From: Candidatus Poribacteria bacterium
GTDB taxonomy: Bacteria > Poribacteria > WGA-4E > WGA-3G
Length of the DNA: 64,000 bases
Direction of reading: 5' to 3'
Assembly: GCA_028821605.1 (NCBI GenBank)
Contig: JAPPFM010000013.1
Span: forward strand, 1-64,000
Shown here: piece by piece, positions 13,595 through 57,342 of the stretch
Position numbering within the stretch: the stretch's first letter is position 1
Layout: every line of letters begins with the position of its first letter
Program-made: the position numbers and the translations under genes
The notes under the pieces: generated by a model
What the model saw: only the letters and a program-made list of their open reading frames with translations
Databases searched by the model: none
Told to the model about the DNA's origin: nothing

Positions 13595-14404
13595 ATGCCA
13601 ATCACAAGTATCCTCTTTGATTTGGACGATACCCTTGTTGTAGAGGGTGCCGCTGCGGATGCAGCCTTTCTGGCGACGTGTGAGCGTGCATACGAGAAAC
13701 ACGGCATTGATCCAGAAGCACTTCATCAATCAGTCCGCTACCATGCCCGCCAGTTATGGCGTGCATCTACAACCATTACCTATTGTCGTGCTATCGGTAT
13801 CAGTTCATGGGAGGGTTTATGGGCGCGTTTTCTCGGTAGCGACCCAAATCTAAAGTGTCTTCGCGCATGGGCACCAACTTATAGACGGGAAGCATGGTTC
13901 TCTGCCCTTGCTGACCACGGCGTGAGCGATTCGTCCTTTGCTGAAGAATTGTCTGCTACCTTTCTATTGGAACGGCGTGCACGGCATACACTCTTTTCCG
14001 ATGTTGAAGACAGTCTAACACATCTTCACGGGATCTACCAATTAGCACTCGTCACCAATGGCGCGCCCGATCTGCAGCATGAAAAAATTCAAGGTGCTAA
14101 CTTGGCACGGTTCTTTGACACAATCCTGATTTCAGGAGAAGTAGGTATCGGAAAGCCGGATTGCCGAATCTTCGGGCTGGCACTTGACGCACTTGCCGCT
14201 TCGCCATTTGAAACAGTGATGATCGGAGATAGTTTGACACGGGACATCTTGGGCGCGCAACGTGCTGGACTCAAAGGAATTTGGCTGAACCGCTCAGGGA
14301 GTGATGCGACCGACCAAGTTACACCGGATGTTCAGATTACAAGCCTGAGTCAATTGCATAAGCGACTGTCGGCTTTAGACGATGTAAACCTAAGTTGCCT
14401 CTAA
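13595..14404 (+). CDS. HAD-superfamily phosphatase (subfamily IA)
   Basis: A 269-residue HAD hydrolase with all four motifs: Asp9 and Asp11 in FDLDDT, Thr154 in VTNG, Lys187 in GKPD and Asp212 in IGDSLTRD. The helical cap sits between motifs I and II (about residues 20-120). It resembles the YjjG/NANP type that dephosphorylates nucleotides or sugar phosphates and would act in the cytoplasm. A half copy of the GTAGGTTGGG repeat forms its upstream region and no strong ribosome site is seen. The substrate is unassigned. Confidence 0.85.
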   Translation: MPITSILFDLDDTLVVEGAAADAAFLATCERAYEKHGIDPEALHQSVRYHARQLWRASTTITYCRAIGISSWEGLWARFLGSDPNLKCLRAWAPTYRREAWFSALADHGVSDSSFAEELSATFLLERRARHTLFSDVEDSLTHLHGIYQLALVTNGAPDLQHEKIQGANLARFFDTILISGEVGIGKPDCRIFGLALDALAASPFETVMIGDSLTRDILGAQRAGLKGIWLNRSGSDATDQVTPDVQITSLSQLHKRLSALDDVNLSCL

Positions 14405-14421
14405 AGCGTTATATACACAAA

Positions 14422-14502
14422 GGCGAGGATACAATCCTCGCCAGCAGTGGTGAGGGCTTGTTCCCTGACGAACTGTAAACATATTTTCGGATTCTACTAT
14501 AA
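14422..14502. repeat. CGAGG-hairpin / TTTTACTATA repeat, copy 1
   Basis: GGCGAGGAT-ACA-ATCCTCGCC forms a stem, followed by AGCAGTGGTGAG and, after a variable spacer, TTTTCGGATTCTACTATAA. The same order recurs at 16494-16574 and 63454-63558, and the right end alone at 57662-57690. All copies are intergenic. Confidence 0.75.
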
Positions 14503-14546
14503 GAGGACCTTTGAGGCAGTTATGAAATTTAATCCTGGAGGAAAAA

Positions 14547-14957
14547 GTGACACACATCTATCACAAAGAAGATGCCGAAGTCGTACGAATTGAAGGCGAG
14601 GCACCGCGGACCTTATACACCCTCGTCGAGCCGAATACTGTTGGTACTGAGCACTTTTCGATGGGGTTAGAAGAGGTTGATCCCAATAGCGAGATTCCTA
14701 TGCACTCACACAGCGAAGCGGAAGAGATTATTTTCGTCTATGGTGGGCAGGGAAAGGCGTTTGTCGGTGATGAGGTCGCCGACCTGAAACCCGGCACAGT
14801 TATCTATCTTCCGCCGAATGTTGAACACCGGTTTGTCAACACAGGCGATGAACCGCTCTGGATTACGTGGACGCTCTCACCCCCCGGCTTTGAGAAGCAA
14901 ATTCGACGGATTGCAGACGGCTCCGCTGGAATGGAAGTCTTTAGTGAGTCAGATTAG
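14547..14957 (+). CDS. Cupin-domain protein
   Basis: A 136-residue single-domain cupin with a GTG start five bases after GGAGG (14537-14541). Metal ligands are visible: His53 and His55 in MHSHSEAEE, Glu59 or Glu60 in the same motif, and His94 in VEHRF, separated by the usual G-rich strand. Small mononuclear cupins act as isomerases, dioxygenases or ligand-binding regulators in the cytoplasm; nothing here distinguishes them. It lies just upstream of the sigma-54 promoter region at 14994-15107 but is not driven by it. Confidence 0.85.
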   Translation: MTHIYHKEDAEVVRIEGEAPRTLYTLVEPNTVGTEHFSMGLEEVDPNSEIPMHSHSEAEEIIFVYGGQGKAFVGDEVADLKPGTVIYLPPNVEHRFVNTGDEPLWITWTLSPPGFEKQIRRIADGSAGMEVFSESD

Positions 14958-14993
14958 GACCTCTGAAACGCAGTGCTGAAGATTTGTTAAGTC

Positions 14994-15107
14994 TGCCCCA
15001 TTTCGTGCATAAGGGTATGAAATATGTACCTTTTCGTGCAGTACTTTCTGGACATTTGGCAAAAATTCCACCAATATAGCATTATTCAGGTTGGCATGTT
15101 ATTTGCT
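14994..15107 (+). promoter_or_regulatory. Sigma-54 promoter with two tandem activator sites
   Basis: The -24/-12 element is TTGGCA-N6-TTGCT at 15091-15107, with the GG and GC exactly ten bases apart. Upstream are two 16-bp sites, TGCCCCATTTCGTGCA (14994-15009) and TGTACCTTTTCGTGCA (15025-15040), spaced 31 bp, about three helical turns. They resemble NtrC-type half-sites (TGC...GCA). The distance from the second site to the -24 box is 52 bp, identical to the promoter at 55680-55792. Downstream lies the IsrB element and then the giant TPR gene. Confidence 0.75.
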
Positions 15108-15180
15108 AAGGTAACAAATCCTTGCATTATGAAATTAAAAATAATGCATCTTTTTTGCCCCTAAAGTGCGTCACTATAAG

Positions 15181-15386
15181 TCAACTACCCAAGTCTAAAG
15201 ACTTGGGCTTGTGCGAAGCGCATGCCGAGCGTCCACTCCACAAGGTAAACGGTTTTCTACAGTAATATATCGTAGTATCTTGGCGTGGTAGCCAGTTGAA
15301 TGTATCGGATACTCCCCTCGTCTGATACCACTTGGATATTGCGATCTGGAAGGGACAACACACCCTGCAAAGGAGAATACAAACTT
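15181..15386 (+). ncRNA. Candidate omega-RNA scaffold upstream of isrB
   Basis: Known IscB/IsrB proteins use an RNA encoded immediately upstream, whose guide is taken from DNA just outside the left end. Here about 200 non-coding bases lie between the left-end hairpin and the ATG, with several short GC-rich complementary segments after the first stem-loop. If the family rule holds, the guide would be the flank ending near 15180. The RNA itself and its limits are inferred, not seen. Confidence 0.45.
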
Positions 15387-16412
15387 ATGTTTGTGCCTGT
15401 AAAAACCAAAGACGGACAACAACTGATGCCTCTGCATGCCGCACGAGCAAGAAAACTTATCAAGCGTGGCGAGGCAACACCCTATTGGGATAACGGTATC
15501 TATTGTATCCGTCTGAACAAAGAACCGTCTGACAGAGAAATACAAGATATTGTTGTCGGTGTAGACCCCGGTAGTAAGAAAGAGGGGTTTACCGTCAAAT
15601 CAGAAAAGCATACCTATTTGAATGTGCAGGCGGACGCTCATAATAAAGTGGGTAAGAAAGTAGCGAAGCGTCGTGAGTTGCGCAGGCGTAGACGCTCTCG
15701 TAAGTGTCCGAACCGTCCTAACAGAACCAACCGCCTTGCGAATAGAGAACGAATACCCGCGGGCACTCGTGCGAGGTGGGATTGGAAACTACGGATACTT
15801 GATTGGCTGTCGAAGTTGTATCCAGTTACGCATGTCTGCGTAGAGGATATTAAGGCACGGACAATAGAACGTGCGAAGCAGTGGAATCAATCGTTTAGTC
15901 CACTTGAAGTTGGTAAACGGTGGTTCTATCGCGAACTCCGAAAGCGGTGGGAGTTGCTAACACTTCAAGGGTGGGAAACCAAAGAGATACGCGATAGGTT
16001 AGGGCTAAAGAAGTCGTCAGAGAAGATGTCAGAAACCTTTGACGCACATTGTGTAGATAGTTGGTGTCTGGCATATCATGTTGTTGGTGGGAGAAGTATA
16101 CCTGATAATACCTCAATCTTTTGTATAGCCCCGATACCTATCAAACGCAGGTGTCTACACCGTGAACAAGAGGCGAGAGGCAGGAAACGAAATAGATATG
16201 GGGGCACGCGGTGTTTGTATACCGTCAAGAACGCACTCGTCAAACATGTCAAACACGGCTTGCTACGCGTCTCAGGATACCAAAAAGGAAAATTAACGCT
16301 CAGCGAAATCAACAGTAGCAAACAAGTCGTACTTCGTGCAAAAGAAAACGAATATACTATCTTGAAACGACTCAACTTCAAATACCATAACGCCACTACA
16401 TCCCAAACCTAA
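15387..16412 (+). CDS. isrB: IsrB-like RNA-guided nickase (IscB family without HNH)
   Basis: A 341-residue protein; ATG 15387 follows AAAGGAG (15369-15375), and the first residues FVPVKTKDGQQLMPLHAARARKL form the N-terminal PLMP domain. RuvC-I Asp60 (GVDPGSK), an Arg-rich bridge helix (about 88-112), RuvC-II Glu153 (VCVEDIKA) and RuvC-III Asp224 (AHCVDSW) are present. Only about 70 residues separate RuvC-II and III and none form an HNH, so it fits IsrB, the HNH-less relative (about 350 residues) that nicks one strand with a guide RNA. The catalytic triad is complete, so it may be active. The stop codon TAA lies in the loop of the right-end hairpin. Confidence 0.8.
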   Translation: MFVPVKTKDGQQLMPLHAARARKLIKRGEATPYWDNGIYCIRLNKEPSDREIQDIVVGVDPGSKKEGFTVKSEKHTYLNVQADAHNKVGKKVAKRRELRRRRRSRKCPNRPNRTNRLANRERIPAGTRARWDWKLRILDWLSKLYPVTHVCVEDIKARTIERAKQWNQSFSPLEVGKRWFYRELRKRWELLTLQGWETKEIRDRLGLKKSSEKMSETFDAHCVDSWCLAYHVVGGRSIPDNTSIFCIAPIPIKRRCLHREQEARGRKRNRYGGTRCLYTVKNALVKHVKHGLLRVSGYQKGKLTLSEINSSKQVVLRAKENEYTILKRLNFKYHNATTSQT

Positions 16413-16493
16413 AGGATTGGGTTTTGTGGCGAAGATTAGATAACGCCGCGGATATTTATACTAAAACCTACAATTAATTAGACATTATGAAAG

Positions 16494-16574
16494 GGCGAGG
16501 TTCCAAACCTCGCCAGCGGTGGTGAGGTGTTTTGTGTTTTCCAAAGTGTTCTCTTATTTTCGGGTTTTACTATA
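16494..16574. repeat. CGAGG-hairpin / TTTTACTATA repeat, copy 2
   Basis: GGCGAGGTT-CCA-AACCTCGCC stem, then AGCGGTGGTGAG, then TTTTCGGGTTTTACTATAA. It lies between the IsrB element and the giant TPR gene, 86 bases before the TPR start, and so falls in that gene's leader. Confidence 0.75.
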
Positions 16575-16659
16575 AATTCGCTTTTGACAGACGATGTAAA
16601 ATCCTCAAAAGTTCTAAGTGCTTTTCCAAAGCTGCCTATTCACTCAAGGAGATCCTTCC

Positions 16660-19600
16660 ATGTTTGGACGAGAAAAATTCTCAGTTGTCGTGTGTGTGTT
16701 GTATCTTATATCCTGCACCCTTTATCTTTCCTCGATTAGTTTTGCCCAAGACGAACAAATCATTGAACGCTACAAACTAATGCTCAGTCGCAATCCGAAA
16801 GAGGGGAGTACGTTTGATCGACTCTACCAGTTTTATTTGGAAGGTACGGGTTTAGATGCCATGGTAACCGACTATCAAGCCGAGGCACAAGCCAAACCGG
16901 ACAATTCAAACGTTCAACTCATCTTGGGACACATCTACAAACGTCTTGGAAAGGACCTTGAGACCGTCGCAGCGTATCAACGCGCTGTTGAACTTGCTGC
17001 GAACGATTATTACGCGCATTTCGCCTTGGGACAGATGTATGCAACGTTGCGACGACATGAAGAGGCGATCGGTGCGTTGACGAAGGCAGCAGAATTATCG
17101 GAAGAAACACAGGCGGCATCTCCTGAAGAGTTGATGGATGTATATAAAGCACTTGGGCGCGCCTACTTCAGCCGAGACCGGGTGGACGAGGCGATTGCGG
17201 CGTGGGGAAAAATCCCTGAACTTGATCCGGAAAACATCTTCTCTCGTATTGAACTCGCGGATCTTTTCCGAGAGCAGGAACTCTATGATCAGGCAATCGC
17301 ACAACATGAAGCGATTATTCAACTTAAGACAGAGGATCCGTATCGGATCTGCTTGAGTCGTCGAGAAATTGGGAACATTCACGAGGCAAAAGGCGATTAT
17401 GAGGATGCCATTCAAAGTTACGATACTGCGATGGCTTTAACAGCACCGGGCAATTGGCTGCGGAAAGATCTCCAACACCGCATTATCGGTATCTACGCAG
17501 CTGATGGCAATTGGGAAGGGCTGATTGCGCACTATCAAAAGAAACTTGAGGACACACCGAACGATCCTGAACTCATCGGTCTGCTCGCTGCCGCATACAT
17601 TGAGAACCAGCAGTTAGATGAAGGTATCACTACATATCAGAAGGCAGCAGAACTCGCCCCAACAGACACTGGAATCCGATTAAACTTAATCACCGCCCTC
17701 CGCAGTGCTGAAAAATTTGAAGACGCAGCAACTGCTTATGAATCCCTCAGCGAGCAGCAACCTGACGATTTCGGCATCTACCGCGAACTCGGTGAGTTGT
17801 ACTTGCAATTGGAGGACGAAAGCAGGGCAAGAGCAACATATCAGAGGATGCTTGACCGGGACCCGGATAACGCAGGCACACACCTCATCCTTGCCGAAAT
17901 TTACGCTGGAAATGACTGGATAGACGATGCCATCGCAGCATACCAGAAAGCGATGGAAAAGAGTCCCGACAATCTTGACTATATTGAGTATTTCGGCGAA
18001 TTCTACTTCCGTCAGGGCAACCGTCAGAAGACTGTGGAGACGTGGAATCAGTTGGTTGCCGGTGACAAAGCAACCGCTGAGAACTATGACCGATTGGCGA
18101 AGTTACTTGATGCCAAGGATTTTCGGACGGAAGCCATCGCTGCGAGTCGGGAAGCGGTTACGTTGATGCCTGATGCCTATCGCTATCGTGAAGCACTGGC
18201 GCAGCGGCTCACAGCGGCGAAGAACTACGACGAAGCATTGGCAGAATATGCTGAGGCAGAGAAACTCGCACCCAACGAATTCTTCGCTGAACAGATGGCT
18301 GACCAGCAAATCGAAATCTATCGGCGGCAAGGGACGCTTGTTGGGAAAATTGAGGCATTGGAAACAGAACTTAACAAGCAGGGAATTGCTCCGGCTGATG
18401 CCTTTACCCAACAGAAGCAGCTTGCCAAGATGTACCTCAAGTTGGGCAATATCACTTACGCAATTGAAGTGCTTTTGAAGACGAAAGCACTCCAACCCGA
18501 TGATATACTCATCAACCGTTGGCTCGCGGAAGTCTATACCCGACAGGGTTTGCGCGATGAAGCCGATGCTATCTACACACATTTGATTGAGGTTGATAGT
18601 GCGAATGCGCGGGAATACTATGCAAACATTGCACGCGCCCATCTGGTCATTATGGATTTTGATACCGCAACAGACGCGGCGAAACAGGCAGTGGCGCACA
18701 GTCCCCGCAATCCTGAAGGACATCAGATGCTCGCGTTGATCGCTAAGCAGCTTGGCAACTATGAAACCGCCGTTGACAGCCTCAAGCAGGCGATTCGCCT
18801 TCGACCGGAAGCGACCGACATTCGTGCTGAACTGGCAGAGGTTTATAAAATTTCGGGGAATCCTCGACAGGCGATTGAGCAGTACTGGCGGTGTTGGGAG
18901 TTAAGCGAGAGTGTGAATGATAAACTCGCATTCGTCAAACCGCTCTCTGAGATATATTACGATTTGGGACGACGCGGTGAGTTAGAAGAAAAGCTGAAAC
19001 AGATGTCGCAGACGAATACGTTTGGCGTAGGTCCTGTCGTTGCCTTGGCAGAGCTTTATCAGATGGAGGGCGACTTACCAAGCGCACGTTTCCAATTGGC
19101 GCGGGCATTAGATCAGGAGCGTGAAAATTCGGATCTGTTGGCACAACTCGTCAAAGTCAGCCTTGATCTTGGTGATACCCAAGAGGCACTCACCTATCAA
19201 CAGCGACTCGCCAAGGCGCAACCCGATCCGATCCATCAGCAGCGGCTCGGTGAATTGTTGTTTGATGTCGGGCGCGAACAGGAGGCAATCCAAGCGTGGA
19301 CAAAATTGCTGCATGCCAAGAATCAACCGCTTGAGGCGGAGATTCGGCTCGCGACTTTGCTGATTCGGCACGGGCTGCTCGATGAAGCGATTTCTGTCCT
19401 TGACCGCGCGGCGGAAAAGATAACGGGGACAGATACCCATATTGCGCTATATCAGTTCGGTGCAGCGTTGGTTCAAATGAACGAGTTTGACCGCGCACAA
19501 CCTCATTTCCAACGGATTCTGGACATGCCCGAACCCCCTAAGAGCACAACACAGAACGTCACTGCGAGTCGTTCAGGGTGGGGTCCTCCTGGAATCAACA

Positions 19601-25886: not shown

Positions 25887-27371
25887 ATGGACGAAAAATT
25901 AATTCTCGAAAAAATTCGGCACGTCCGCCACCGTCTGAATATTCAGCGGTATTTTCAGACCTTCGCGACGTTCCTCTTCTATGGATTTTTGGCGTGTGTT
26001 CCGTTAGTTATTGTTGACAGCGTCACATCCTTTAACGTTCCACCCCTTGTTTTTCTTTGGGTGGTGCTCGGTATCGCTGTGGGTGCCTTTGCGGTTCGCC
26101 TCATTCGACCTGTGAGCCTCTACGAGACAGCGCGGAGAATTGACACAGATGCCTCCCTCAAGGACCGCGTCGTGAGTGGCTTGGAACAAATTCAGCAGCG
26201 GATTGATGAACCCTTGACGGCTCTGCAACTTCAGGATACTTCTAACAGGTTAAAAGCAGTACCCGTGAAGCAGGTCGCCCGCTACGTTGTCCCGCGCGAG
26301 ACGAAGTTCATTGTGCTCATCGCTGCTTTCCTCGTTGCCTTTTCATTCGTTGAATTTTTCGCTCCCTCAGCGACTTCAACGGAGATTGACTTCTCACCGC
26401 AAATCGCAGCCGAGGCGGACACGCTGTTGAAACGGATTGAGGAAGTGAAGAAGGAAGCGGAACGGGATGAGGATACGGAGCTTGAGGAGCTCTTAGAAGA
26501 GATTGAGAAAAGAGCATTGGAATTGAAGAAACCGCAGATCGCCCCGAAAGAGGCACTCGCCAGAATGACTGAGTTGAGCGCGCTCTTGAAGACGAAAATC
26601 GATCCCCTCAAGATGGCACAGCAGCAAGAACTCATGAAGGGGTTAGGGCAACAGTTCATTGGTAATCCCTACCTCGGCGAATTCGGACACCAGTTGAAAC
26701 GCGGCGATTATCAACAAGCGGCGACGAAACTTGACGACGTAACCAAAGATTTGCCGAAGTCCGACAAGGAGAAACGTCAAAACCTTGCCGATGCGCTCAA
26801 ACGGGGTGGGAAACACCTCGAAGGTAGCGATCTCGATGGACTTGGAAGCGAGCTGTCGGGAGCAGGCGAAGGTTTGGATGGTGACGATATCGAAGGCGCG
26901 AGAGTTCGGCTCCGCGCATCGAGCAAAAAAATTCGGGATCTCGCACTCCTTAAAAATAGAAATGTGCGGTTAGCGGAGTTACTTTCGGAATGTGAAGCTT
27001 GTAAGGCAGGTATCGCCGGTGCTTGTAGTGCCGCTGGAATTAATAAGGCTACAGGGTTGACGCAGGCACTGAGCGTTAATCCAAGCAATGGTATAGGCAA
27101 CAAAACATCTGCGAGTCAACTCGGTCAAGTGACATCTCTTGATTCCATTTTGAATCTTGAGCAGATTACCGGGGTCCAAGGGGAAGGTGCCTCGACCGTC
27201 CAAACCTCTAAGGCATCTGCAGAAGGACAACAATCCGCTGTGAGTTATAAAGAGGCGTACACGAAGTATCAGAAGCTTTCCGAGGATGTCCTCACCCAAG
27301 AACAGATTCCGTTGGGGTATAAGTTTTATGTGAAACGCTACTTTGAATCTATTAAGCCGAGTAGTAAATAG
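25887..27371 (+). CDS. Membrane protein with coiled coil, MoxR-series partner
   Basis: A 494-residue protein with two N-terminal membrane helices (about 27-47 and 53-73), a third at about 136-155, then a long, highly charged coiled coil (about 170-245; EEVKKEAERDEDTELEELLEEIEKR). Next come a Gly/Asp-rich linker (about 310-335) and a Cys cluster (CEACKAGIAGAC) near 365-380. I do not recognise a named family. The layout, a membrane anchor with a long helical arm, is like the DUF4175-type proteins that accompany MoxR/VWA genes. GAAGGAG precedes the ATG. It is the first of six same-strand genes of the MoxR series. Confidence 0.75.
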   Translation: MDEKLILEKIRHVRHRLNIQRYFQTFATFLFYGFLACVPLVIVDSVTSFNVPPLVFLWVVLGIAVGAFAVRLIRPVSLYETARRIDTDASLKDRVVSGLEQIQQRIDEPLTALQLQDTSNRLKAVPVKQVARYVVPRETKFIVLIAAFLVAFSFVEFFAPSATSTEIDFSPQIAAEADTLLKRIEEVKKEAERDEDTELEELLEEIEKRALELKKPQIAPKEALARMTELSALLKTKIDPLKMAQQQELMKGLGQQFIGNPYLGEFGHQLKRGDYQQAATKLDDVTKDLPKSDKEKRQNLADALKRGGKHLEGSDLDGLGSELSGAGEGLDGDDIEGARVRLRASSKKIRDLALLKNRNVRLAELLSECEACKAGIAGACSAAGINKATGLTQALSVNPSNGIGNKTSASQLGQVTSLDSILNLEQITGVQGEGASTVQTSKASAEGQQSAVSYKEAYTKYQKLSEDVLTQEQIPLGYKFYVKRYFESIKPSSK

Positions 27372-27372
27372 T

Positions 27373-27483
27373 TATTAGTTATCAGTTATCAGTTATCAGT
27401 TATCAGTTAAGAGATATGTTGTGGCAGTGGCAGAAAATGTTACCACCACAGAGATTAACTGACAACTGACGACTGACAACTGG
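27373..27483. repeat. Degenerate heptamer repeat array (AGTTATC / AACTGAC)
   Basis: Four consecutive AGTTATC heptamers at 27376-27406 are followed, after a short spacer, by their complement-like words AACTGACAACTGACG... The array can fold on itself. The same words occur at 29379-29530, 45765-45788 and 63353-63393. The pattern resembles the short tandemly repeated repeats of cyanobacteria and is intergenic in every case. Confidence 0.7.
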
Positions 27484-27504
27484 AAACTATACTATAGGAG
27501 AAAC

Positions 27505-28488
27505 ATGTCCGAACACGCCGAACAAAAATATGAAGAATTCCGTGAGACTTTTCTGAAAATACAGCAAGAAGTTTCCAAACGAATCGTTGGGCAAAAGGAA
27601 ATCATTGAAGGCGTTCTGATCTGCCTCATGACGGGAGGGCATGCGTTGTTAGAAGGTGTCCCTGGGTTAGGCAAAACCCTGCTAATCCGAACGCTGCACG
27701 AGGTATTGGACCTCAAATTTTCCCGAATTCAGTTCACGCCGGATCTGATGCCAGCCGACATTATCGGTACCACTGTGGTCGCTGAAGATGAAGAGGGACG
27801 CAAGTTCTTTGAATTCCAACCTGGTCCCGTATTTGCCAATCTTATTCTTGCCGACGAAATCAACCGAGCGACCCCTAAGACACAATCCGCTTTGTTAGAG
27901 GCGATGCAGGAGAAATCTGTGACCGTTGCCGGACAGCAGCGAGAATTGGATCTACCTTTCTTTGTGATGGCGACACAAAACCCCTTGGAAATGGAAGGCA
28001 CCTATCCGCTGCCCGAAGCGCAACTTGACCGATTCTTTTTTAAACTCAAGGTTGAATACCCAAGCCTTGATGAACTCGACCTCGTTATGGAGCGCACGAC
28101 GAGACGCGAGATGCCTTCCGTTGATAAAGTCTGTGATGGTGCGCAGATCAACACGTTGGAACAGAGCGTCCGCGATATTCTCGTCGCTGAGGACGTGCGT
28201 AGGTATGCCTTGCAGCTGATATTGGGTACACACCCCGAAGCAGAAGATGCGCCAGAACTCACTAAAAAGTATGTCCGCTACGGTTCGAGTCCGCGTGGTG
28301 CGCAGGCGTTGATTCTCGGTGGAAAGGTCCGGGCGATTCTCGATGGCAGGTACAATGTTGCCCGTGAAGACATTCAAGCAGTTGCCTTGCCAAGCCTGCG
28401 GCATCGTCTCATCCTTAGCTTTGAAGGCGAAGCGGAAGGGATTGATCCCGATGGCATCATTCAGCATTTGCTGGAAGCGATTGAATGA
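27505..28488 (+). CDS. MoxR-family AAA+ ATPase
   Basis: A 327-residue AAA+ protein with Walker A GVPGLGKT (51-58), Walker B LADEINR (Asp117, Glu118), sensor and arginine-finger regions, and the family signature YPLPEAQLDRFFFKL. MoxR ATPases act as chaperones that load or remodel complexes, usually with VWA-domain partners; here DUF58 and two VWA genes follow directly. Its stop overlaps the next start as ATGA (28485-28488), so translation is probably coupled. It acts in the cytoplasm next to membrane partners. Confidence 0.93.
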   Translation: MSEHAEQKYEEFRETFLKIQQEVSKRIVGQKEIIEGVLICLMTGGHALLEGVPGLGKTLLIRTLHEVLDLKFSRIQFTPDLMPADIIGTTVVAEDEEGRKFFEFQPGPVFANLILADEINRATPKTQSALLEAMQEKSVTVAGQQRELDLPFFVMATQNPLEMEGTYPLPEAQLDRFFFKLKVEYPSLDELDLVMERTTRREMPSVDKVCDGAQINTLEQSVRDILVAEDVRRYALQLILGTHPEAEDAPELTKKYVRYGSSPRGAQALILGGKVRAILDGRYNVAREDIQAVALPSLRHRLILSFEGEAEGIDPDGIIQHLLEAIE

Positions 28489-29375
28489 TGAACGATACAC
28501 AGGCTGCCTTCGACAGCGAATTCCTCAAAAAACTTGAATACCTCTACATCGTCTCCAAAAAGATTTTTGCCGGACGCATCAAAGCGGAGCGGCGGAGTAC
28601 ACGCCGAGGTGTCAGCGTTGAATTTGCTGATTATCGCAACTATACCGCGGGCGACGATTTTCGCTACATTGATTGGAACGCTTTCGCACGTTTGGATGAA
28701 CTCCTGCTAAAACTCTATGAGGAGCGGGAGGATCTGCACATCTATTTCCTCGTTGATGCCAGCCGGTCGATGACCTACGGCGAATTGCCGAAGTTGACCT
28801 ATGCGAAACGCGTCGCTGCTGCGCTCGCCTACATCGGTTTGTCCAACCTCGACCGGATTAGTATTACTGCCTTCAACAACACGCGTGTGAATCGACTTCC
28901 AACAGAGCGTGGCAAGGGTAAAATCTTCACCGTGCTCGACTTTCTTGAACAGATTAATGGTACCGGCGAAACGGATTTGGAGAACGCCTTCCACAACTTC
29001 ATTCATACGACCAAACGCCGTGGGCTCGTCGTTCTAATTTCTGACCTCTTTGATCCGAGTGGGTTTGCAAATGGGTTGAATGTGTTGAAGTTTCAGAAGC
29101 ATGAACTCTTCGTAATCCAGGTCATTGATCAGAAAGAGGTCACCCCCGACCTACTTGGTGACTATCATCTCATTGACGTTGAAACGGATCGGCTCCGTCA
29201 AGTCACTATCAACGAAAATCATATCAAACGGTATCAGGCACTTTTCCAAAAATATTGCGACGATCTGGATTTATACTGCACACAACGCGAAATCAGCCTC
29301 GTACGGACGACGACAGAATCACCCTTTGAGGAGCTCATCCTACGCATTTTCAGGATGGGAGGTTTTGTCTCTTAA
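28485..29375 (+). CDS. DUF58 / VWA-like protein
   Basis: A 296-residue protein with the DUF58 hallmark RGVSVEFADYRNY...DDFRYIDWNAFAR (42-69) and a VWA-type metal site Asp91-x-Ser93-x-Ser95 (VDASRSM), followed by the Thr/Asp loops GETD and SDLFD. DUF58 proteins are standard partners of MoxR ATPases. The start overlaps the end of the moxR-like gene by four bases. No membrane helix is visible, so it would be cytoplasmic and recruited to the membrane by the BatA-like neighbour. Confidence 0.9.
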   Translation: MMNDTQAAFDSEFLKKLEYLYIVSKKIFAGRIKAERRSTRRGVSVEFADYRNYTAGDDFRYIDWNAFARLDELLLKLYEEREDLHIYFLVDASRSMTYGELPKLTYAKRVAAALAYIGLSNLDRISITAFNNTRVNRLPTERGKGKIFTVLDFLEQINGTGETDLENAFHNFIHTTKRRGLVVLISDLFDPSGFANGLNVLKFQKHELFVIQVIDQKEVTPDLLGDYHLIDVETDRLRQVTINENHIKRYQALFQKYCDDLDLYCTQREISLVRTTTESPFEELILRIFRMGGFVS

Positions 29376-29378
29376 TAG

Positions 29379-29530
29379 TTGTCAGTTACCAGTTAAGACT
29401 CGCGGTCGGTACGATAAAACAGACTGCCACAAGCGACTCTTTAACTGAAAACTGAAAGGTTTTCGCAGAAAACCGTACTGACAACTGATGACTCTCTTAA
29501 CCGATGACTGACTGCTGATGGCTGATAACC
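29379..29530. repeat. Degenerate heptamer repeat array, second site
   Basis: Words of the type GTCAGTTACCAGTTAAGA and ACTGAAAACTGAAAG, then GACTGACTGCTGATGGCTGATAA, fill the gap between the DUF58 and BatA-like genes. A 16-base hairpin GGTTTTCGCAGAAAACC (29458-29474) lies inside. Confidence 0.6.
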
Positions 29531-29546
29531 GACGGCTTATAAAAAA

Positions 29547-31601
29547 ATGAATTTCTTATCCCCGATCTCACTTTTTCTATTTGGGCTGGCTATTCCGATT
29601 GTCGCACTGTACATCCTCAGGCTGCGTCGGCGACGCGAACCTGTTTCCACACTGATGTTCTGGGAAGAACTTTTCAGAGAGCGGCAGACGACCTCACTGT
29701 TTCAGAGACTGAAGCATCTCCTATCGCTCCTGCTGCAGCTCCTGTTTCTGGCACTTTTGGTGCTTGCCGTGGCGCGACCGCAGTTCGCGTTTCTAACGAA
29801 GTCGGCTCGGCAGCTCGTGTTGGTTATTGACCGGTCAGCGAGCATGAACGCGGTTGAGGATTCCGAGGGGCGCACGCGGTTGGAATCTGCTAAGCAGCGT
29901 GCACTGCAAACAGTAGATGGACTCCGTTTCATGGACGAAATGACTGTGATTAGTTCCCATACGCAACCTGTAATTCACAGTCCGTTTACTAATCACCAGA
30001 GATCGCTGCGAGACGCGATTAACGCAATCAAGCCAACCGACATCAGTACTGATCTTGAACCAGCATTTGATTTAGCAGCCGCGATCGCCCAAACGAAGCC
30101 CAATCCCGAAATCGTTATCTTCAGCGATTTCCAGTCTGTTTCCGAATCGCTGCTTGCTAAACTCAATAGTAAAGTAGAACAGGACAAGGATACCGAAGAA
30201 CCAGACTCAGAAATCAAGCACCGTCTGGTCAGGATAGGAGAAGCGAAAAATAATGTCGGTATCACGCAGTTCCGCGTCCGAAAGAGTCTTGTTAACCCTT
30301 TTGATTACGAAACGCTTTTGCGCGTCGTGAATGCCTCAGAGGGGGAGCGACAGTTCAACGTTGAACTCTATTTCAAGGAGGACCTCTTTGACGTGCGTCC
30401 CTACACGCTTGCGCCGGGCGAAAGCAAATCCGAGATTTTTAGCAACTTTACATTTGAAGGCGGAGAACTCAAAGCCGTCTTGGATATTGAAGACGCACTC
30501 TCCACAGACAACGTTGCTTATGCGGCACTCCCGAAGCGTGAGCGTATTTCTGTTCTACTTGTGACAGAGGAGAACCCATTTCTTGAAAAAGCACTCGCTG
30601 TTGATGAACAACTTGATCTCAGCGTTGTCACACCGGCGGTGTATGAATCCACTGCACCACTTGAAAGCCATAACTCGGAAGGCAAGCGTGCCTATCAGGT
30701 CGTCATCTTTGACCGATACAGCCCGCCGACCCTTGGCGATGGAAATTACATGTTTATCTATCCACCCGCTGGATCCTCATCTTTAGAAACTTCCGGCACG
30801 GAACTGAAATGGAACATCGGGGCACCCTTGGAAACACCGATTATCACGGACTGGGAGCGGACACACCCAATTCTACGGCATGTTCATTTGGAGAACGTTC
30901 AGATAGGTGAGGCGTATCAGATTACGCCACCGGCGACGGCACAGGTGCTTGCCCGTTCATTCGAGTCGCCTGTCTTGTTTGTTGACGTTGCACCGAACCG
31001 GAAAATCGTCTTCGCAGCCATTGATATTTTGCAATCCGATCTGCCGCTTCGCATTGCCTTTCCTGTGATTATTGCCAACACGATTCAGTGGTTTCAACAG
31101 CGTACCGGCATCCAAGAATACTACCTCCGAACAGGGGAAGTCCTACAGCAGCGGATTGAACCGCTATCGGAAGCGGATTCACCCCAAGACGTGCCGAGAA
31201 GTGTAACAATCACAGGACCTGGAGATGAGACGTGGGAGATACCTATTGAGCAGAACGAGGTGCTTTTTGATCAAACGCAGCGTGCCGGTTTTTATGAATT
31301 GAAACGGACGGATAGATCACTAACGGAGGCAACCACACCTACAAGAGAGGAGGATTCCCCATTGGAAGCAGCCGCTTCTGCAGAAGAAGAGAATGACGGA
31401 ACTTTGTGGGCTATCAATCTCGCTGATGAAACAGAGTCACACATCGGGATAGACGCAGCAATTGAGGACCTGCTCGAAGAATCGGTGTTACCGAGCGGTG
31501 CTGCGCTTTTACACTACCCACCATGGGTTTACTTGGTATTCCTCGCTGTCGGGTTGAGTGTCGTTGAATGGTTTTTATATCAACGGAGAAGGATCGATTA
31601 A
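29547..31601 (+). CDS. BatA-like membrane VWA protein
   Basis: A 684-residue protein. The N-terminus is the BatA-type segment: a membrane helix (about 5-25), RLRRRREPVSTLMFWEEL, and a second helix (about 58-76). It is followed by a VWA domain with Asp95-x-Ser97-x-Ser99 (IDRSASM). The middle (about 230-560) is a beta-rich region of the kind seen in planctomycete VWA proteins, and a last helix lies near 658-676 with a short basic tail. It is thus anchored at both ends with the VWA domain between. In Bat operons such proteins work with MoxR and DUF58. No strong ribosome site is visible after the heptamer array. Confidence 0.87.
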   Translation: MNFLSPISLFLFGLAIPIVALYILRLRRRREPVSTLMFWEELFRERQTTSLFQRLKHLLSLLLQLLFLALLVLAVARPQFAFLTKSARQLVLVIDRSASMNAVEDSEGRTRLESAKQRALQTVDGLRFMDEMTVISSHTQPVIHSPFTNHQRSLRDAINAIKPTDISTDLEPAFDLAAAIAQTKPNPEIVIFSDFQSVSESLLAKLNSKVEQDKDTEEPDSEIKHRLVRIGEAKNNVGITQFRVRKSLVNPFDYETLLRVVNASEGERQFNVELYFKEDLFDVRPYTLAPGESKSEIFSNFTFEGGELKAVLDIEDALSTDNVAYAALPKRERISVLLVTEENPFLEKALAVDEQLDLSVVTPAVYESTAPLESHNSEGKRAYQVVIFDRYSPPTLGDGNYMFIYPPAGSSSLETSGTELKWNIGAPLETPIITDWERTHPILRHVHLENVQIGEAYQITPPATAQVLARSFESPVLFVDVAPNRKIVFAAIDILQSDLPLRIAFPVIIANTIQWFQQRTGIQEYYLRTGEVLQQRIEPLSEADSPQDVPRSVTITGPGDETWEIPIEQNEVLFDQTQRAGFYELKRTDRSLTEATTPTREEDSPLEAAASAEEENDGTLWAINLADETESHIGIDAAIEDLLEESVLPSGAALLHYPPWVYLVFLAVGLSVVEWFLYQRRRID

Positions 31602-31645
31602 GGTAGTAGGGGCGAGGTCACTTCGTCCACACGGATTGGGGGATT

Positions 31646-31731
31646 CAGTCTGGGAATAGACTGGATTTAGTCTGGGGTTAGACTAAATCCGTTCCTTGTA
31701 TTACATTTCCATTCCTTGTATTACATCCCCA
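31646..31731. repeat. Two hairpins and a tandem 20-mer before the next gene
   Basis: CAGTCT/AGACTG (31646-31663) and ATTTAGTCT/AGACTAAAT (31665-31688) are adjacent hairpins, followed by two tandem 20-base units beginning TTCCTTGTATTACAT (31692 and 31712). Function is unknown; the position suggests attenuation or a terminator between the BatA-like gene and its neighbour. Confidence 0.5.
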
Positions 31732-31763
31732 ACCCCTACGATGCCTGATGAACGGAGATATAG

Positions 31764-32810
31764 GTGAACAACAGCAATACATTCACACCTCAACCGATGA
31801 GATTTGCTGAGATTCTGGATACAGCTTTTAGTCTCTACCGGAAACATTTTTTGCTATTTCTGGGCATTATCGCTTTCGATTTTTGCGGACGTTTAGTGGG
31901 GTATTTGTTAGGGCGTTTTCTTCCTGGTTTTCCCCTAAAAGGTATTGTAATAAATCTGATTAGTATGTCTTTTGGACTTGTAAGCATGGGTGGAATAATT
32001 ATCGCAGCGGCTACAATCTATTTAAGTGGACATATTACAAGTCGTGATGCATTGAAGCAAGCTGGACATTGGTTCTGGTATATATTAGCATGTTTTCTTG
32101 TATGGAGTTTGGGTTTTCATATATCAAGAACCGGTACCTCTTTTTCTCTATTTTCTGTGATGAACCCTATAACTCTGTGGACTCCAGGTTCTCCTGTTGA
32201 TACTGATCCTCTAATACGTTTACCTTACATGCTCGCTTTTCTTAGGTTAGTTTCTGTGCCGTTCTCAATCTATTTTCGGGATCCTTGGTGGCACATCACC
32301 TCTGATTTAGTATTTTTTCTGGTGAGATCACGGATGCTATGGATGCAGTTTATTCCGTTAGCCCTTGTGCCGTTCTCAATTTACTTTGCTGTGCGTTGGA
32401 CGTTCACCACCACAGTTGTTCTGCTTGAGAGACCTTCTATCCGAGGTATTTTTGGAAGGAGCAGCGAATTGACTCGTGGGAGATGGTGGCAAGTGTGGGG
32501 AATGCTAATCTCCTTTTCCGTGTTAAGCTTCGCTATCCAGTACATCATAGAGATCACAGTTGGATTCATTCTTATCTTAACAAAATTGATGGGTGTAGCA
32601 GGTCCTATGGAGATCGTTCAATGGATAGTAATACATACATCCATTGATGTTGACCCACTTTTCTACACGATTATGATGTGGACGGGTTTCATCGTTAGAA
32701 CGCTTGTTTTTCCGATTTGGGTCATCGGCATTACACTTTTGTACTTTGATTTGCGAATACGAAAAGAGGGATTTAATGGCGAAATGCCACTAAACAACAC
32801 CACTAACTGA
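31764..32810 (+). CDS. Polytopic membrane protein (DUF7847-like)
   Basis: A 348-residue protein with a GTG start seven bases after GGAG (31753-31756). It opens with MRFAEILDTAFSLYRKHFLLFLG, the signature of the glycerophosphoryl-diester-phosphodiesterase membrane-like family (sometimes DUF7847), and has about six hydrophobic segments, with RGIFGRSSELTRGRWWQVWG near the fourth. Its job is unknown; related proteins are often next to MoxR or spore/secretion operons. Base composition is more AT-rich than the flanking VWA genes. Confidence 0.75.
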   Translation: MNNSNTFTPQPMRFAEILDTAFSLYRKHFLLFLGIIAFDFCGRLVGYLLGRFLPGFPLKGIVINLISMSFGLVSMGGIIIAAATIYLSGHITSRDALKQAGHWFWYILACFLVWSLGFHISRTGTSFSLFSVMNPITLWTPGSPVDTDPLIRLPYMLAFLRLVSVPFSIYFRDPWWHITSDLVFFLVRSRMLWMQFIPLALVPFSIYFAVRWTFTTTVVLLERPSIRGIFGRSSELTRGRWWQVWGMLISFSVLSFAIQYIIEITVGFILILTKLMGVAGPMEIVQWIVIHTSIDVDPLFYTIMMWTGFIVRTLVFPIWVIGITLLYFDLRIRKEGFNGEMPLNNTTN

Positions 32811-32826
32811 ATACTTCAATAAAATT

Positions 32827-35403
32827 ATGGAAATTACACGTCCACTTTTACTTTTACTTCTACTTTTCTTACCGGCTCTTTACTACGGTTACCGGCGGAG
32901 CCTCGTGGATTTGTCACGAACGCAGCGGGTCATTAGTTTAGTCGTCCGGATTATCATTGTTGTCCTGCTGATTCTGAGCGTTGCTGATGTCCAGTACCTG
33001 AGGACGGATGATAAATTGGCGGTTATGTTTTTAACGGACATTTCGGATAGTATCTCGGACGATGGGTTGACAAAAGCGACGGATTATGTCAACGAAGCAT
33101 TGAAATCACGAGACGGGAACCAGCAAAGTGGTCTCATCGCATTTACGGACAAGGCAGAGATCATTCAAGCGTTACTGAAAAATGGAGATGAGCCTGATGC
33201 TGAATTGAAACTCACTGAAATCAAACAGGCATGGCTGGAGACGGATGAGGACGCGGGTGACACAACGAACATCGCACGGGCGATTGAGACCGCATGGGGG
33301 ACTTTCCCCGCAAATGCGAATAAACGCATTGTCCTGATTACAGATGGTGTTGAGACACAGGGAGACGCTGTTCATACTGCACTTCGTGGGAAGGACTTCG
33401 GCATACAAATCGACACGGTGCCGCTATATCCGAGCGATGAACCGGAGGTCATGGTTCAGAGACTTGATATGCCCGCCCAGGTTAAACAGGGTGCGCCGTT
33501 CAATGTGGAGGTGCTCATCCACAGCAACCATGAAGATGTAGCAGAGATTCGTCTCTTCAAGAACAAATTCGAGGTCGCTAAACAGGAAACTCGACTTGAA
33601 GAGGGTGAAAATCGAGTGATATTTACCCAAACCGCTATGGACAGCGGCACGCTTACTTACGATGCGCTCTGCCGATCGACGAAAGACACGCGCTATGACA
33701 ACAACCGAGCACTCGGCATCGTTTCGGTGTCCGGCAAGCCGAAGGTGCTGCTCATCGATGAAAACGAATCGCAAGCCCGTTATCTAACGCGCGCGCTTGA
33801 AGATGCCAAAATTCGCGTTGATGTCCGCAACGGATTGGGCGTACCGAATGAACTGGCAGATTTGCAAAACTATGAACTCGTTATTTTCAGCAATGTGCCC
33901 GCCAACCGACTCACCCAAAATCAGATGGAACTCATCCGCACCTACGTACAAGACCTCGGCGGCGGCTTCATGATGCTCGGCAGCGAAAACAGTTTCGGAC
34001 TCGGCGGCTATTACAAAACCCCAATCGAAGCGATTTTGCCTGTCCACACAGATACAGAGAAGAAAAAAGAAACGCCTTCTTTGGCAATGGTCTTGGTTAT
34101 TGATAAATCTGGAAGTATGGGTGGTATTAAGATTGAGTTAGCAAAAGCCGCAGCGCGTGCCACCGTTGAACTGCTTGGGAAACGTGATAAAATAGGGGTT
34201 GTCGCCTTTGATGGTTCCCCGTTCTGGATTGCGGAGATGCATGATGCTTCGGACAAATTGTACCTCTCTGATCAGATCGGTTCAATCACCGCAAGTGGTG
34301 GCACGAATCTGTATCCGGCACTTGAGCAGGCGTATTTCGCCCTGACGGAGACGACAGCGAAACTCAAGCACGTCATCGTCCTCAGCGATGGACAGTCGCA
34401 AGATGGGGACTGGTATGGGATCGCCAGTTCTATGCGGAATGAACGTATCACGATCTCAACGGTCGGCATCGGGAGTGGGGCTGACATGAATCTCCTTGGC
34501 AACCTCGCTAACTGGGGTGGTGGACGTGATTACTTCACGCAGGATCCGTATAGCATCCCTCAGATTTTCGCGAAGGAGACTGTTACGGCTTCCAAATCTG
34601 CAATCATTGACGAGCCTTTCATTCCACAGCGTATCAAGCCCACACAGGTCTTGAGTGGAATAGATCTTGAACTCGCACCCTTCCTCCTCGGTTACGTTGC
34701 TACGCAACCGCGTCCGACGGCTGAAGTCTTCCTTGTTTCTGACCGCGGTGATCCGCTACTGGCAAGTTGGCAGTATGGCTTAGGTAAATCTGTCGCGTTT
34801 ACCTCTGATGCTAAAGCACGTTGGGCTTCGGATTGGTTGGATTGGGGTGGCTACGGCAAGTTCTGGACGCAATTGGTGCGCGATACAATGCGGAAGGCGA
34901 CGCTCAGCAATTTTCAGGCGGAAATCAGGAAGGAGAAGGGGATTGCGCATCTCGCCATTGATGCGCTTGACGACGCGGGAGATTTCCTGAATCAACTCGA
35001 AAACGATGTTTCCCTCATTTCGCCCGATCTCAAAAAGAAACAACTCGCTGTTACACAGACCGCCCCGGGACGATATGAACTCGATTTTCCGACGCAAGAC
35101 GTTGGCCCCTATTTCCTGAACGTCATGCAAAAACAGGCAGGCGAGGTCGTCAATACCCAAGTGACGGGCACTGTTGTCTCGTATCCACAGGAATATCTCG
35201 TTCACAACGCCAACGACGCGCTTCTTACACAACTCGCTGCGGTATCGGGTGGAAAATTCAACGCTTCAGCCGAGGACGCGTTCCGGCCCCCTGAAGAGCA
35301 GGTCGCGCTGCGTATCCATTTATGGCGACCGTTCCTCATCACTGCACTATTTCTATTGATCGTGGATATTGCGTTGCGTCGCGTCGATTTCAAGCGAGGC
35401 TAA
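32827..35403 (+). CDS. Large membrane protein: VWA - GATase-like - VWA
   Basis: An 858-residue protein. Two membrane helices open it (about 6-22 and 35-53). The first VWA domain has Asp71-x-Ser73-x-Ser75 (TDISDS). At about 308-405 there is a class-I glutamine-amidotransferase-like domain (VLLIDENESQ...GGGFMMLGSENSFGLGGY) without a visible catalytic Cys. A second VWA domain has Asp426-x-Ser428-x-Ser430 (IDKSGSM) and the downstream TNLYPAL and LSDGQS loops. A last helix lies near 838-853. This is the planctomycete type in which a dead amidotransferase domain lies between two metal-binding domains. It closes the MoxR series, 16 bases after the previous gene. Confidence 0.85.
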   Translation: MEITRPLLLLLLLFLPALYYGYRRSLVDLSRTQRVISLVVRIIIVVLLILSVADVQYLRTDDKLAVMFLTDISDSISDDGLTKATDYVNEALKSRDGNQQSGLIAFTDKAEIIQALLKNGDEPDAELKLTEIKQAWLETDEDAGDTTNIARAIETAWGTFPANANKRIVLITDGVETQGDAVHTALRGKDFGIQIDTVPLYPSDEPEVMVQRLDMPAQVKQGAPFNVEVLIHSNHEDVAEIRLFKNKFEVAKQETRLEEGENRVIFTQTAMDSGTLTYDALCRSTKDTRYDNNRALGIVSVSGKPKVLLIDENESQARYLTRALEDAKIRVDVRNGLGVPNELADLQNYELVIFSNVPANRLTQNQMELIRTYVQDLGGGFMMLGSENSFGLGGYYKTPIEAILPVHTDTEKKKETPSLAMVLVIDKSGSMGGIKIELAKAAARATVELLGKRDKIGVVAFDGSPFWIAEMHDASDKLYLSDQIGSITASGGTNLYPALEQAYFALTETTAKLKHVIVLSDGQSQDGDWYGIASSMRNERITISTVGIGSGADMNLLGNLANWGGGRDYFTQDPYSIPQIFAKETVTASKSAIIDEPFIPQRIKPTQVLSGIDLELAPFLLGYVATQPRPTAEVFLVSDRGDPLLASWQYGLGKSVAFTSDAKARWASDWLDWGGYGKFWTQLVRDTMRKATLSNFQAEIRKEKGIAHLAIDALDDAGDFLNQLENDVSLISPDLKKKQLAVTQTAPGRYELDFPTQDVGPYFLNVMQKQAGEVVNTQVTGTVVSYPQEYLVHNANDALLTQLAAVSGGKFNASAEDAFRPPEEQVALRIHLWRPFLITALFLLIVDIALRRVDFKRG

Positions 35404-50497: not shown

Positions 50498-50676
50498 AAT
50501 AGATATTCCTTTAATCTTGTTTAAAACGTGAGTTTGAAAAAGTTTATGCCTTAGAAAACATCTGTAAATCTGTGATTTCCCGAAGTTTAGAGAACTCCAG
50601 TGAGGGGTTATTATCCAAAACCTGTAATATACAGATATGACACCTTGAAATAGCAAACATATTGGAATCACTGTTA

Positions 50677-51186: not shown

Positions 51187-51474
51187 AATAGATAGTAAAC
51201 TCTGAAATCAATGGCATTTCAGACAGAGCAGATGTGAAGACTTATCAACATCTGATAGGCAAGGTTTCTTAACCGCGCCGCTACAGAAAGTCCAATAATT
51301 AACCTAAAGTCTACCAAATCTCCTTTCGAGTATCTATGTAGTGTTACATTACTTTTTCCAGCATGCATAATAAACAGAGCAATGCAGCAATCAAGATATG
51401 GGAGAGCCTATTGCATTGCTCAGCACTTTCCTCAGGAGGAAGAGGGCTCTCTTACATTCCATAGTCGCAATAGT

Positions 51475-51490
51475 AGCAAATACTATGCCA
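51475..51490 (-). promoter_or_regulatory. Sigma-54 promoter toward the 51186 lipoprotein gene
   Basis: On the minus strand TTGGCA-N6-TTGCT, with GG and GC ten bases apart, as in the other three. It lies about 290 bases before the ATG at 51186, a long leader. No TGC-N10-GCA activator sites are visible beyond it. Confidence 0.55.
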
Positions 51491-51536
51491 AGTTTGAAGT
51501 ATGCGAGAAGTGTCTTATTGCTTGGGCTTATTGAAT

Positions 51537-51656: not shown

Positions 51657-51972
51657 GTTGAATTAAAAAATCTGAACATTTTTGTCCAAAAAATGAACAT
51701 CATAGAGGAACATATTAAACAGAACAGAGAAAATTTTGGTGATGGACTGATCCTTAACCGGATTTGGTATTGTTGAAAATGAAGTGGACCGATTGGTGAT
51801 TTTCCAGCAGAGGTGGAATGATCAAGCGTTGTTATTCCCTCAGCAACGCCATTTATATTGGAACTGTGGGTATTTATGGCAAGATTTACAAATCGGATAA
51901 TTGCACAGATAGATAAGCGTATCCGGTTTGTTGGTGCAAAGCGAGCATTGAGGTAGGATAACGTCGTCAAAC

Positions 51973-55679: not shown

Positions 55680-55792
55680 TGCCCCTTTTTGTGCAGCGTT
55701 AAAAGAGACTGCCCCTTTTTGTGCAGCTTAACCCTCTTGATGCAGGGATTCATGGCAAATTCAGCGTTTTTCACATTGGCATGGAAATTGCA
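55680..55792 (+). promoter_or_regulatory. Sigma-54 promoter with two tandem activator sites
   Basis: TTGGCA-N6-TTGCA at 55776-55792, GG and GC ten bases apart. Two identical TGCCCCTTTTTGTGCA sites lie at 55680-55695 and 55710-55725, 30 bp apart and on one face of the helix; the second is 52 bp from the -24 box. Site sequence, spacing and distance repeat those at 14994-15107. The gene served starts at 55864 with GGAGG. Confidence 0.85.
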
Positions 55793-55863: not shown

Positions 55864-57342
55864 ATGAGTGCAAAAAGAACCTCAGGTGCCTTTATGACTT
55901 CCTTGGTTCTCCACATCGTCATAGCAGCGATTGCTGGCATTTACCTTGTCACGCAAACCGAGCAGTTTAAAGACCTTGTGGGTGCCGAAGTGCTCCAACC
56001 GAAAGAGCCGCCGAAGCCTAAGGTACGGAAACCTGTTGTAAAACCTGTTATTAAGCCGACGGTCCCAACCCAGAACACCGTCGTTGTTGAACAGGTTCAG
56101 GTGCAACCCCGTGTAACGACTGCGTTTGTTGCCAAGTCGAATTTCCAACCGCAGACGGTCCTCGAATTTTCCAACCAAACCGTCAAAGTAGAAGCACCGA
56201 TTAATCCGAACGTTCCGAGAGTGGTTACACCAAACGCCCCAGTGCCGACAGTTGTAACACACGCGGATCTCCCTGTTTCGGATGCACCCGGTGCCTTGGC
56301 GTTCTCCGCACCCGTGGCAACTGCGCCTTCCGCTGGACCGGCTAACATCGGTCGTGGTGTCGCAGGGACTGCAGTGCAAGTGAAAGTCGCTTTTGAACGT
56401 CCACCCGGACTCGCGATGGTTGAAAACGTCGGTGCCGCACGCGATGCCCTCGGTGATGTCGTTGAAAACATCACGCTCGGTAACGTTGAAGTACCGCCCC
56501 TGCCGAGAGGCGAACCCGGTGGTCGCGTTATCGGTAAAGGTAAAGACATCCGCGGCGTATTCCGTTTCACACGGATCCGCCACAGTCTCTCTGACTGGTG
56601 GGCAGATGCTTCTTCCTTGAACGCATTGACGAAGTGGCTCAACGAACGTACCAAAATCAAAACCGACATGAACGTTGAAGGTGGCGCATTGAAACTTACC
56701 GATGCCAACCTCTTCAAAACACCGTTCGTCTTTATGACAGGACATGATCCGTCACTCGTCCGTTCTCGTAACTTGCTTGGACGGCAGTATGGTGGCGGTA
56801 AAATGGACAGCCGTCTCACCGAGACTGAAGCAGCGGGTATGCGTCGCTACTTCGTTGAAAAGGGCGGATTCCTCGTCTTTGACGACTGCGGTGTGAACGC
56901 TCCTGCGCAGGCGATGATTCGTCTCTTCCTCGCACAGATGCGTTACGTCATGCCTGAGTATCAAATTGAACGGATTCCCAACGATCACGAAGTCTATGAC
57001 AACTTCTATGAAATGGGTGGTCCTCCCGTCGGATTCGACATCTTCTGGTGGGGCACACGTCCGCCGAAACGGAACTACCTCGAAGGTATCTCTGTCGGTG
57101 AAAAGTTGTCCGTTATCGTTGTCCGTCGTGACTATATGTGCGCGATGGAGTCTGTCAGTCTCCCGACCCGTAGTGTCCACTATTCACCCGGTGTGTATCG
57201 TTTCATGACGAACGTTGTGGTGTATGCATTGACGCACGGTCAGATTTCTGACTACTCCGGTTACGTGCCTGAAGACACATTAGCGAAGAAAGAACTCCCG
57301 ACACGAGCACCTGAAGCTGCGAAGGTCGGCGGTTTTGAATAG
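55864..57342 (+). CDS. TonB-like N-terminus fused to DUF4159
   Basis: A 492-residue protein. It opens with a basic stretch and one membrane helix (FMTSLVLHIVIAAIAGIYLV), then a Pro/Lys/Val-rich arm (KPKVRKPVVKPVIKP) as in TonB, and a low-complexity Ala/Val/Pro region to about residue 220. From about 225 to 460 it is a DUF4159 domain: RFTRIRHSLSDWWADASSLNALTKWLNERTKI, PFVFMTGHDPSLV, GGFLVFDDCG. DUF4159 proteins are common in planctomycete-type bacteria near MoxR/VWA genes. Transcription is from the sigma-54 promoter upstream. Function is unknown; the layout suggests a membrane-anchored periplasmic protein. Confidence 0.85.
   Translation: MSAKRTSGAFMTSLVLHIVIAAIAGIYLVTQTEQFKDLVGAEVLQPKEPPKPKVRKPVVKPVIKPTVPTQNTVVVEQVQVQPRVTTAFVAKSNFQPQTVLEFSNQTVKVEAPINPNVPRVVTPNAPVPTVVTHADLPVSDAPGALAFSAPVATAPSAGPANIGRGVAGTAVQVKVAFERPPGLAMVENVGAARDALGDVVENITLGNVEVPPLPRGEPGGRVIGKGKDIRGVFRFTRIRHSLSDWWADASSLNALTKWLNERTKIKTDMNVEGGALKLTDANLFKTPFVFMTGHDPSLVRSRNLLGRQYGGGKMDSRLTETEAAGMRRYFVEKGGFLVFDDCGVNAPAQAMIRLFLAQMRYVMPEYQIERIPNDHEVYDNFYEMGGPPVGFDIFWWGTRPPKRNYLEGISVGEKLSVIVVRRDYMCAMESVSLPTRSVHYSPGVYRFMTNVVVYALTHGQISDYSGYVPEDTLAKKELPTRAPEAAKVGGFE

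Follow-up and report, generated by a model that had tools for sequence, protein, structure and literature searches.

An IsrB element in the leader of a TPR/MoxR gene series behind a sigma-54 promoter in Candidatus Poribacteria

Sigma-54 promoters of the NtrC/PspF type carry paired enhancer sites, and glutamine synthetase is a classical target of this sigma factor. Among IsrB proteins, the closest described relative of the one discussed here is DtIsrB (PDB 8DMB). The sections of its structural description used here (Hirano et al. 2022, PMC9581776) give it a 20-nt guide segment and the TAM NTGA, while other orthologues recognize NTG or NTGG. Arg323 of DtIsrB contacts the third TAM base, G, and Gln326 contacts the fourth, A (PMC9581776, same sections).

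We analysed a 64,000-nt stretch of DNA (the window) from contig C13 of a 6.0-Mb Poribacteria genome in 60 contigs. From 13.6 to 16.7 kb, its plus strand carries, in this order, genes for a HAD hydrolase and a cupin, a pair of activator-like motifs, a sigma-54 box, an IsrB element, a small element with inverted repeats, and a giant TPR gene (Table 1). A first-pass annotation had placed the IsrB element between the sigma-54 box and the TPR gene in an interval that starts at 15091 and ends at 16660, and both limits were correct.

Table 1. Features of the window, by position
Feature	Position	Strand	Remarks
Putative upstream activating sequence, copy 1, TGCCCCATTTCGTGCA	14994..15009	+	97 bp before the -24 box
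Putative upstream activating sequence, copy 2, TGTACCTTTTCGTGCA	15025..15040	+	31 bp after copy 1
Sigma-54 -24/-12 box TTGGCATGTTATTTGC, exact match	15091..15106	+	conserved in relatives without the element
Host leader abutting the left end, expected source of a 20-nt guide	15160..15179	+	by analogy with DtIsrB
IsrB element, left end GTCAACTACCC, right end ..GAAGATTAG	15180..16439	+	from a 94% identical copy (L002), other copies, and empty sites in three relatives
Predicted omega-RNA scaffold region	15180..15386	+	25-copy alignment
IsrB protein, 341 aa, no HNH	15387..16412	+	Gln313 at the site of DtIsrB Arg323
Right-end hairpin of the element	16396..16429	+	
Right flank ATAA, predicted TAM	16440..16443	+	GTAA in the relatives' empty sites
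MITE-like insertion, terminal inverted repeats, ~118 bp	16457..16574	.	folds end to end
Giant TPR gene, 2,937 codons	16660..25473	+	ATG conserved in homologues; own Shine-Dalgarno AAGGAG intact
Series after TPR: MoxR, DUF58, BatA/VWA, VWA, and further genes	25887..35403	+	
MoxR (AAA_3)	27505-28488	+	
DUF58	28485-29375	+	
BatA/VWA	29547-31601	+	
VWA	32827-35403	+	
Twin promoter: tandem motif (55680, 55710) and sigma-54 box (55776-55791)	55680..55791	+	
DUF4159 gene behind the twin promoter	55864..57342	+	Pfam DUF4159, E=7e-29

The sigma-54 promoter and its tandem upstream motif

The pattern TTGGCAYN5TTGC occurs at 54 sites in the genome, as compared to 6 for the reversed control pattern. One of these sites lies ahead of a gene that we recognised by eye, from its sequence, as glutamine synthetase (L058); RpoN is encoded in the genome as well. 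Three close relatives (G006, G015, and G017) lack the element. Their box has the sequence TGGCACGCWATTTGC, and the TPR gene follows it directly; in none of them is it missing or turned toward another gene. The first-pass proposals that the box at 15091 faces IsrB and then the TPR gene, and that the TPR-MoxR series is its target, are supported by this. The TPR homologues of G028 and G003, which are more distant, are also preceded by an exact box, at distances of 161 and 251 nt. Among TPR homologues, we found the box only in these five genomes and in the window, which makes the promoter a trait of only part of the family; the remaining homologues must use something else. Judging from the box, its conservation, and the presence of RpoN, the promoter ahead of the TPR gene is real, and we predict that transcription from it depends on RpoN and on an activator. 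Another box in the window, at 54504, is probably a chance occurrence, as it lies inside a long ORF (53667-54791).

Upstream of the box are two direct copies of TGCCCCATTTTGTGCA, at -97 and -66, and their spacing of 31 bp is kept in the relatives and at other promoters of the genome. The first copy has no mismatches in G006, G015, or G017; the second is degenerate in the window (4 mismatches) and in all three relatives. Among TPR homologues, motif and box go together: where the motif is present so is the box, and where the motif is absent, neither is found. The tandem motif is common to about a dozen sigma-54 promoters of this genome, including those of DUF4159 genes. Besides the twin promoter, it precedes another DUF4159-like gene and several secreted proteins that look WD40- or TolB-like by eye. 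Written as TGCCCC-N5-GTGCA, the motif stands in tandem ahead of sigma-54 boxes at 14994-15040, 55680-55725, L062, L190, L191, L193, L195, L196, L200, and L203, mostly with a spacing of 30-31 bp (22 bp at L193). GTGCA followed by a box at 44-72 bp has 16 matches in the genome and none for the reversed control.

The first-pass annotation had linked the TPR/MoxR series to DUF4159 through the twin promoter. Because the same tandem motif stands at the same distance before both boxes, this link is stronger than was first proposed. The TPR/MoxR and DUF4159 genes very probably belong to one putative activator regulon, which would be served by an uncharacterised enhancer-binding protein and would also take in the secreted WD40/TolB-like genes. 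Such a regulon would tie TPR/MoxR/VWA genes to DUF4159 genes in an uncultured sponge symbiont. Elsewhere in the window, 49607-53344 encodes several short secreted-looking proteins that have Asp-rich tails and repeats of the motif 'FEQNLLPILTARCAFAGCHVA' (CxxCH variants, haem c-like), and one of these stands behind a sigma-54 box at 51476 on the minus strand.

An IsrB insertion in the leader

The left end of the element, which is about 1.26 kb long, lies 74 bp behind the sigma-54 box. In G006, G015, and G017, the leader between box and TPR gene is about 200-320 nt and runs on uninterrupted (..GTGYGTCACTRTTAAGTAACACMGC..), so we conclude from these genomes that the element is an insertion into the untranslated leader of the TPR transcription unit. 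That the element had landed in the leader was already suspected in the first-pass annotation, and the empty sites that it proposed to look for are there, with promoter and leader intact, in all three. (G008, which is also among the closest relatives, is uninformative because its contig begins within the leader.) The right flank is ATAAC in the window and GTAAC in the relatives, and the left flank in the window is one T short, so the junction base can be placed only to within about one position.

The MITE-like insertion is present in G017, partial in G008, and absent in G006 and G015. Judging from this pattern, the leader of the TPR unit has been hit by insertion more than once. We also noticed a second copy of the MITE-like repeat, at 14419-14508. 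Like the one at 16457-16574, it has TATASTAAAACC-type ends and a hairpin of the form GGCGAGG..CCTCGCC, and L003 and L008 contain similar matching pieces. In G006 (L039), a third insertion, unrelated to the others and about 118 bp long, lies in the same leader beside the sigma-54 box and has inverted ends ACCATTTCT..AGAAATGGT.

The only Pfam domain in the element's protein is RRXRR (E=1.7e-30), and its best solved relative is DtIsrB (E=2.7e-30 with the single sequence and 9.8e-44 with a profile, over positions 3-325), with which it is colinear. In the alignment to DtIsrB, the RuvC motifs (GVDPGS, VEDI, and DAHCVDS) seem, by eye, to be intact. The fold of the predicted omega-RNA has 43 predicted pairs, 20 of which show at least one compensatory change in the 25-copy alignment, and an Rfam search of 14400-16700 found no known RNA. 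Given the homology over PLMP and RuvC, the lack of HNH, the structured RNA region upstream, and the TAM-like flank, we assign the protein to IsrB and predict that it is an RNA-guided nickase of the non-target strand. We rejected IscB because there is no HNH between RuvC-II and RuvC-III and because the NCBIfam IscB model scores 81.8 bits, against a cut-off of 175. We also rejected an autonomous IS200/IS605-type element: there is no Y1 transposase in the element and no room for one. Two Y1 genes elsewhere in the genome were considered as the source of the ends, but the flanks of neither carry matching ends. A transposase acting in trans would have to move the element.

Flanks, start codons, and TAM-reading residues across the genus

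Of the 38 genomes that make up the genus here, 32 have IsrB copies, and all of the matches in named genome records are from Candidatus Poribacteria. DNA sequence was available for 97 copies, and their ends were called by pattern, which left 27 left ends uncalled and gave 92 right flanks: 68 ATGA, 8 GTGA, 4 ATGG, 11 ATAA, and 1 that was mis-parsed. We counted the flank as a host start codon if the ORF that it opened had at least 80 codons and if an in-frame stop lay no more than 30 codons upstream. By this criterion, it is a start codon in 29 of the 61 NTG copies with both ends called; of 2,291 control sites taken from these flanks, 127 qualify (P about 2e-19, odds ratio 15, for copies that are not fully independent, as some are orthologous insertions). 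Also, if a start codon lies at the right end or within 10 nt of it, then the left flank usually has a Shine-Dalgarno-like motif (23 of 38 copies, versus 1 of 29 others and 8% of random flank). For two copies in this genome, relatives show an uninterrupted Shine-Dalgarno-ATG. The downstream coding strand is the isrB strand in 56 of 63 scorable copies, and two of the three cyanobacterial plasmid copies that we examined end at an annotated start codon.

As judged from these flanks, NTG-flanked copies are often seated between a host Shine-Dalgarno and its ATG (this applies to about half of the NTGA-flanked copies). We considered whether the right end (GAAGAT..ATG) supplies a new Shine-Dalgarno and rejected this: its mean anti-SD duplex energy is -1.0 kcal/mol, which is weaker than that of random flank (-2.2) or of the native left flank (-5.5). 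In the parts of the literature that we surveyed, we found no report of IsrB/IscB or IS605 insertion at start codons, though absence is no proof. As an aside, rpoN has an IsrB copy (L006 and L171; G000:C19:13804-16142) on its own strand, at a distance of about 1 kb.

All seven of the copies that are at least 81% identical to the window's IsrB (itself included) have ATAA flanks. A profile alignment, whose numbering we checked with Arg100 and Arg104, places DtIsrB Arg323 at residue 313 of the window protein. All 79 of the NTG copies with a residue at this position have Arg. The NTAA copies have Gln, except for one with His (after a one-residue alignment shift was corrected by eye) and one, L100, that keeps Arg. 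Copies with Arg at the 326 position mostly fit an ATGG register, as the published Q326R mutant would predict. If NTAA is the TAM, then most start codons are no longer sites, and 220 nt separate the window copy from the TPR start downstream. To judge from the alignment, Gln in place of Arg can explain why this copy sits in the leader, away from a start codon. On the full-protein tree the Gln copies form four groups, and on a tree built without the TAM domain they are scattered, which hints that the C-terminal TAM-reading domain has been exchanged between IsrB lineages.

How the locus may work, and how it compares

The conserved promoter and motif, the precise insertion and its empty sites, the ends of the element, its flank class, and the match between flank and TAM-reading residue all come from comparison of genomes and copies. 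We think it probable, with some confidence, that the TPR/MoxR series is under an activator-dependent sigma-54 promoter with two tandem sites, and that a non-autonomous, NTAA-flanked IsrB inserted precisely into its leader, in the sense direction, and left the promoter, the activator sites, and the TPR Shine-Dalgarno intact. The upstream motif would be bound by a common activator, and the sigma-54 transcript would run through the leader (the guide), the omega-RNA, and isrB into the TPR series. A scan for sigma-70-type promoters found no plus-strand site between the left end and isrB. The simplest reading, and a plausible one, is that the sigma-54 promoter transcribes the guide and the omega-RNA. 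We count in its favor that co-orientation with the downstream gene is a trait of the IsrB family. By analogy with other OMEGA elements, an RNP guided by the leader sequence might nick the empty allele and so favor retention of the element. Expression of TPR would persist, perhaps at a lower level.

It is unlikely, but worth taking seriously, that the element instead ends or weakens the sigma-54 transcript, so that the TPR series is driven by a promoter downstream of the element or by none. The element does add 1.26 kb and hairpins at both ends, and the hairpin of the adjoining MITE (16507-16528) is terminator-like, although such sites are no commoner here than in shuffled sequence. However, the right-end hairpin has no T-run and was not called a terminator, there is no plus-strand sigma-70-like site between 16440 and 16660, and in G017, which has no IsrB here, the same MITE stands behind an intact promoter. 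Furthermore, the TPR gene has kept an intact reading frame, and over the first 500 residues its product is 95-97% identical to its counterparts in close relatives. Somewhat less likely still is that the box is defunct, that the element is transcribed only from an unrecognised promoter of its own, and that the arrangement is an accident. The -24 box is TGGCAT in the window and TGGCAC in the relatives, and the second activator copy has those 4 mismatches; but TGGCAT boxes with the motif are found elsewhere in the genome, and G006 and G015, though free of the element, have an equally degenerate second copy. We give very little credence to regulation of the TPR series by a domesticated IsrB that acts back on the promoter region, even though its guide would match the leader and TnpB-derived RNA-guided regulators (TldR) exist, as stated in the part of PMC13418256 used here: the RuvC motifs seem intact, the element separates the guide target from the TAM so that the occupied locus is not a target, and all three of the readable relatives lack the element at this site.

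To return to transcription of the element from the sigma-54 promoter, a broader account would be that IsrB lives in host 5' leaders. The NTGA TAM would make start codons ready sites, sense insertions would sit between Shine-Dalgarno and ATG, and the host promoter would transcribe guide and omega-RNA; a change from Arg to Gln would have shifted some lineages to NTAA and freed them into leaders. For this account as a whole, we see about as much reason to doubt it as to believe it. If it is true, then the TAM code of IsrB can be read from its insertion sites. The two TAM-reading positions differ naturally among copies (Arg/Gln and Gln/Arg), as do the flanks that go with them, and this offers a ready test of that code. 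The locus also opens the question of how the guide RNAs of compact OMEGA elements without an obvious promoter are transcribed and how this affects adjoining genes. With same-strand insertions in host leaders and empty alleles in sister genomes, the question can be addressed from the sites alone.

Like DtIsrB, as described in the sections of PMC9581776 used here, the window protein has about 340-350 amino acids, PLMP and RuvC without HNH, and a structured RNA region upstream, and its predicted TAM lies on the side of the element opposite the guide-derived flank. The genus flank classes NTGA and NTGG match TAMs published there. Unlike DtIsrB, the window subfamily has the flank NTAA, which is absent among the TAMs quoted in those sections of PMC9581776, and has Gln in place of the TAM-reading Arg323. 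The window protein shares an RRXRR/PLMP N-terminus and RuvC with IscB (OgeuIscB and others), but IscB has the HNH domain that it lacks. Finally, the promoter resembles those of the NtrC/PspF type in its -24/-12 box and its paired upstream sites, about three helical turns apart; its motif, TGCCCC-N5-GTGCA, is a putative activator site.
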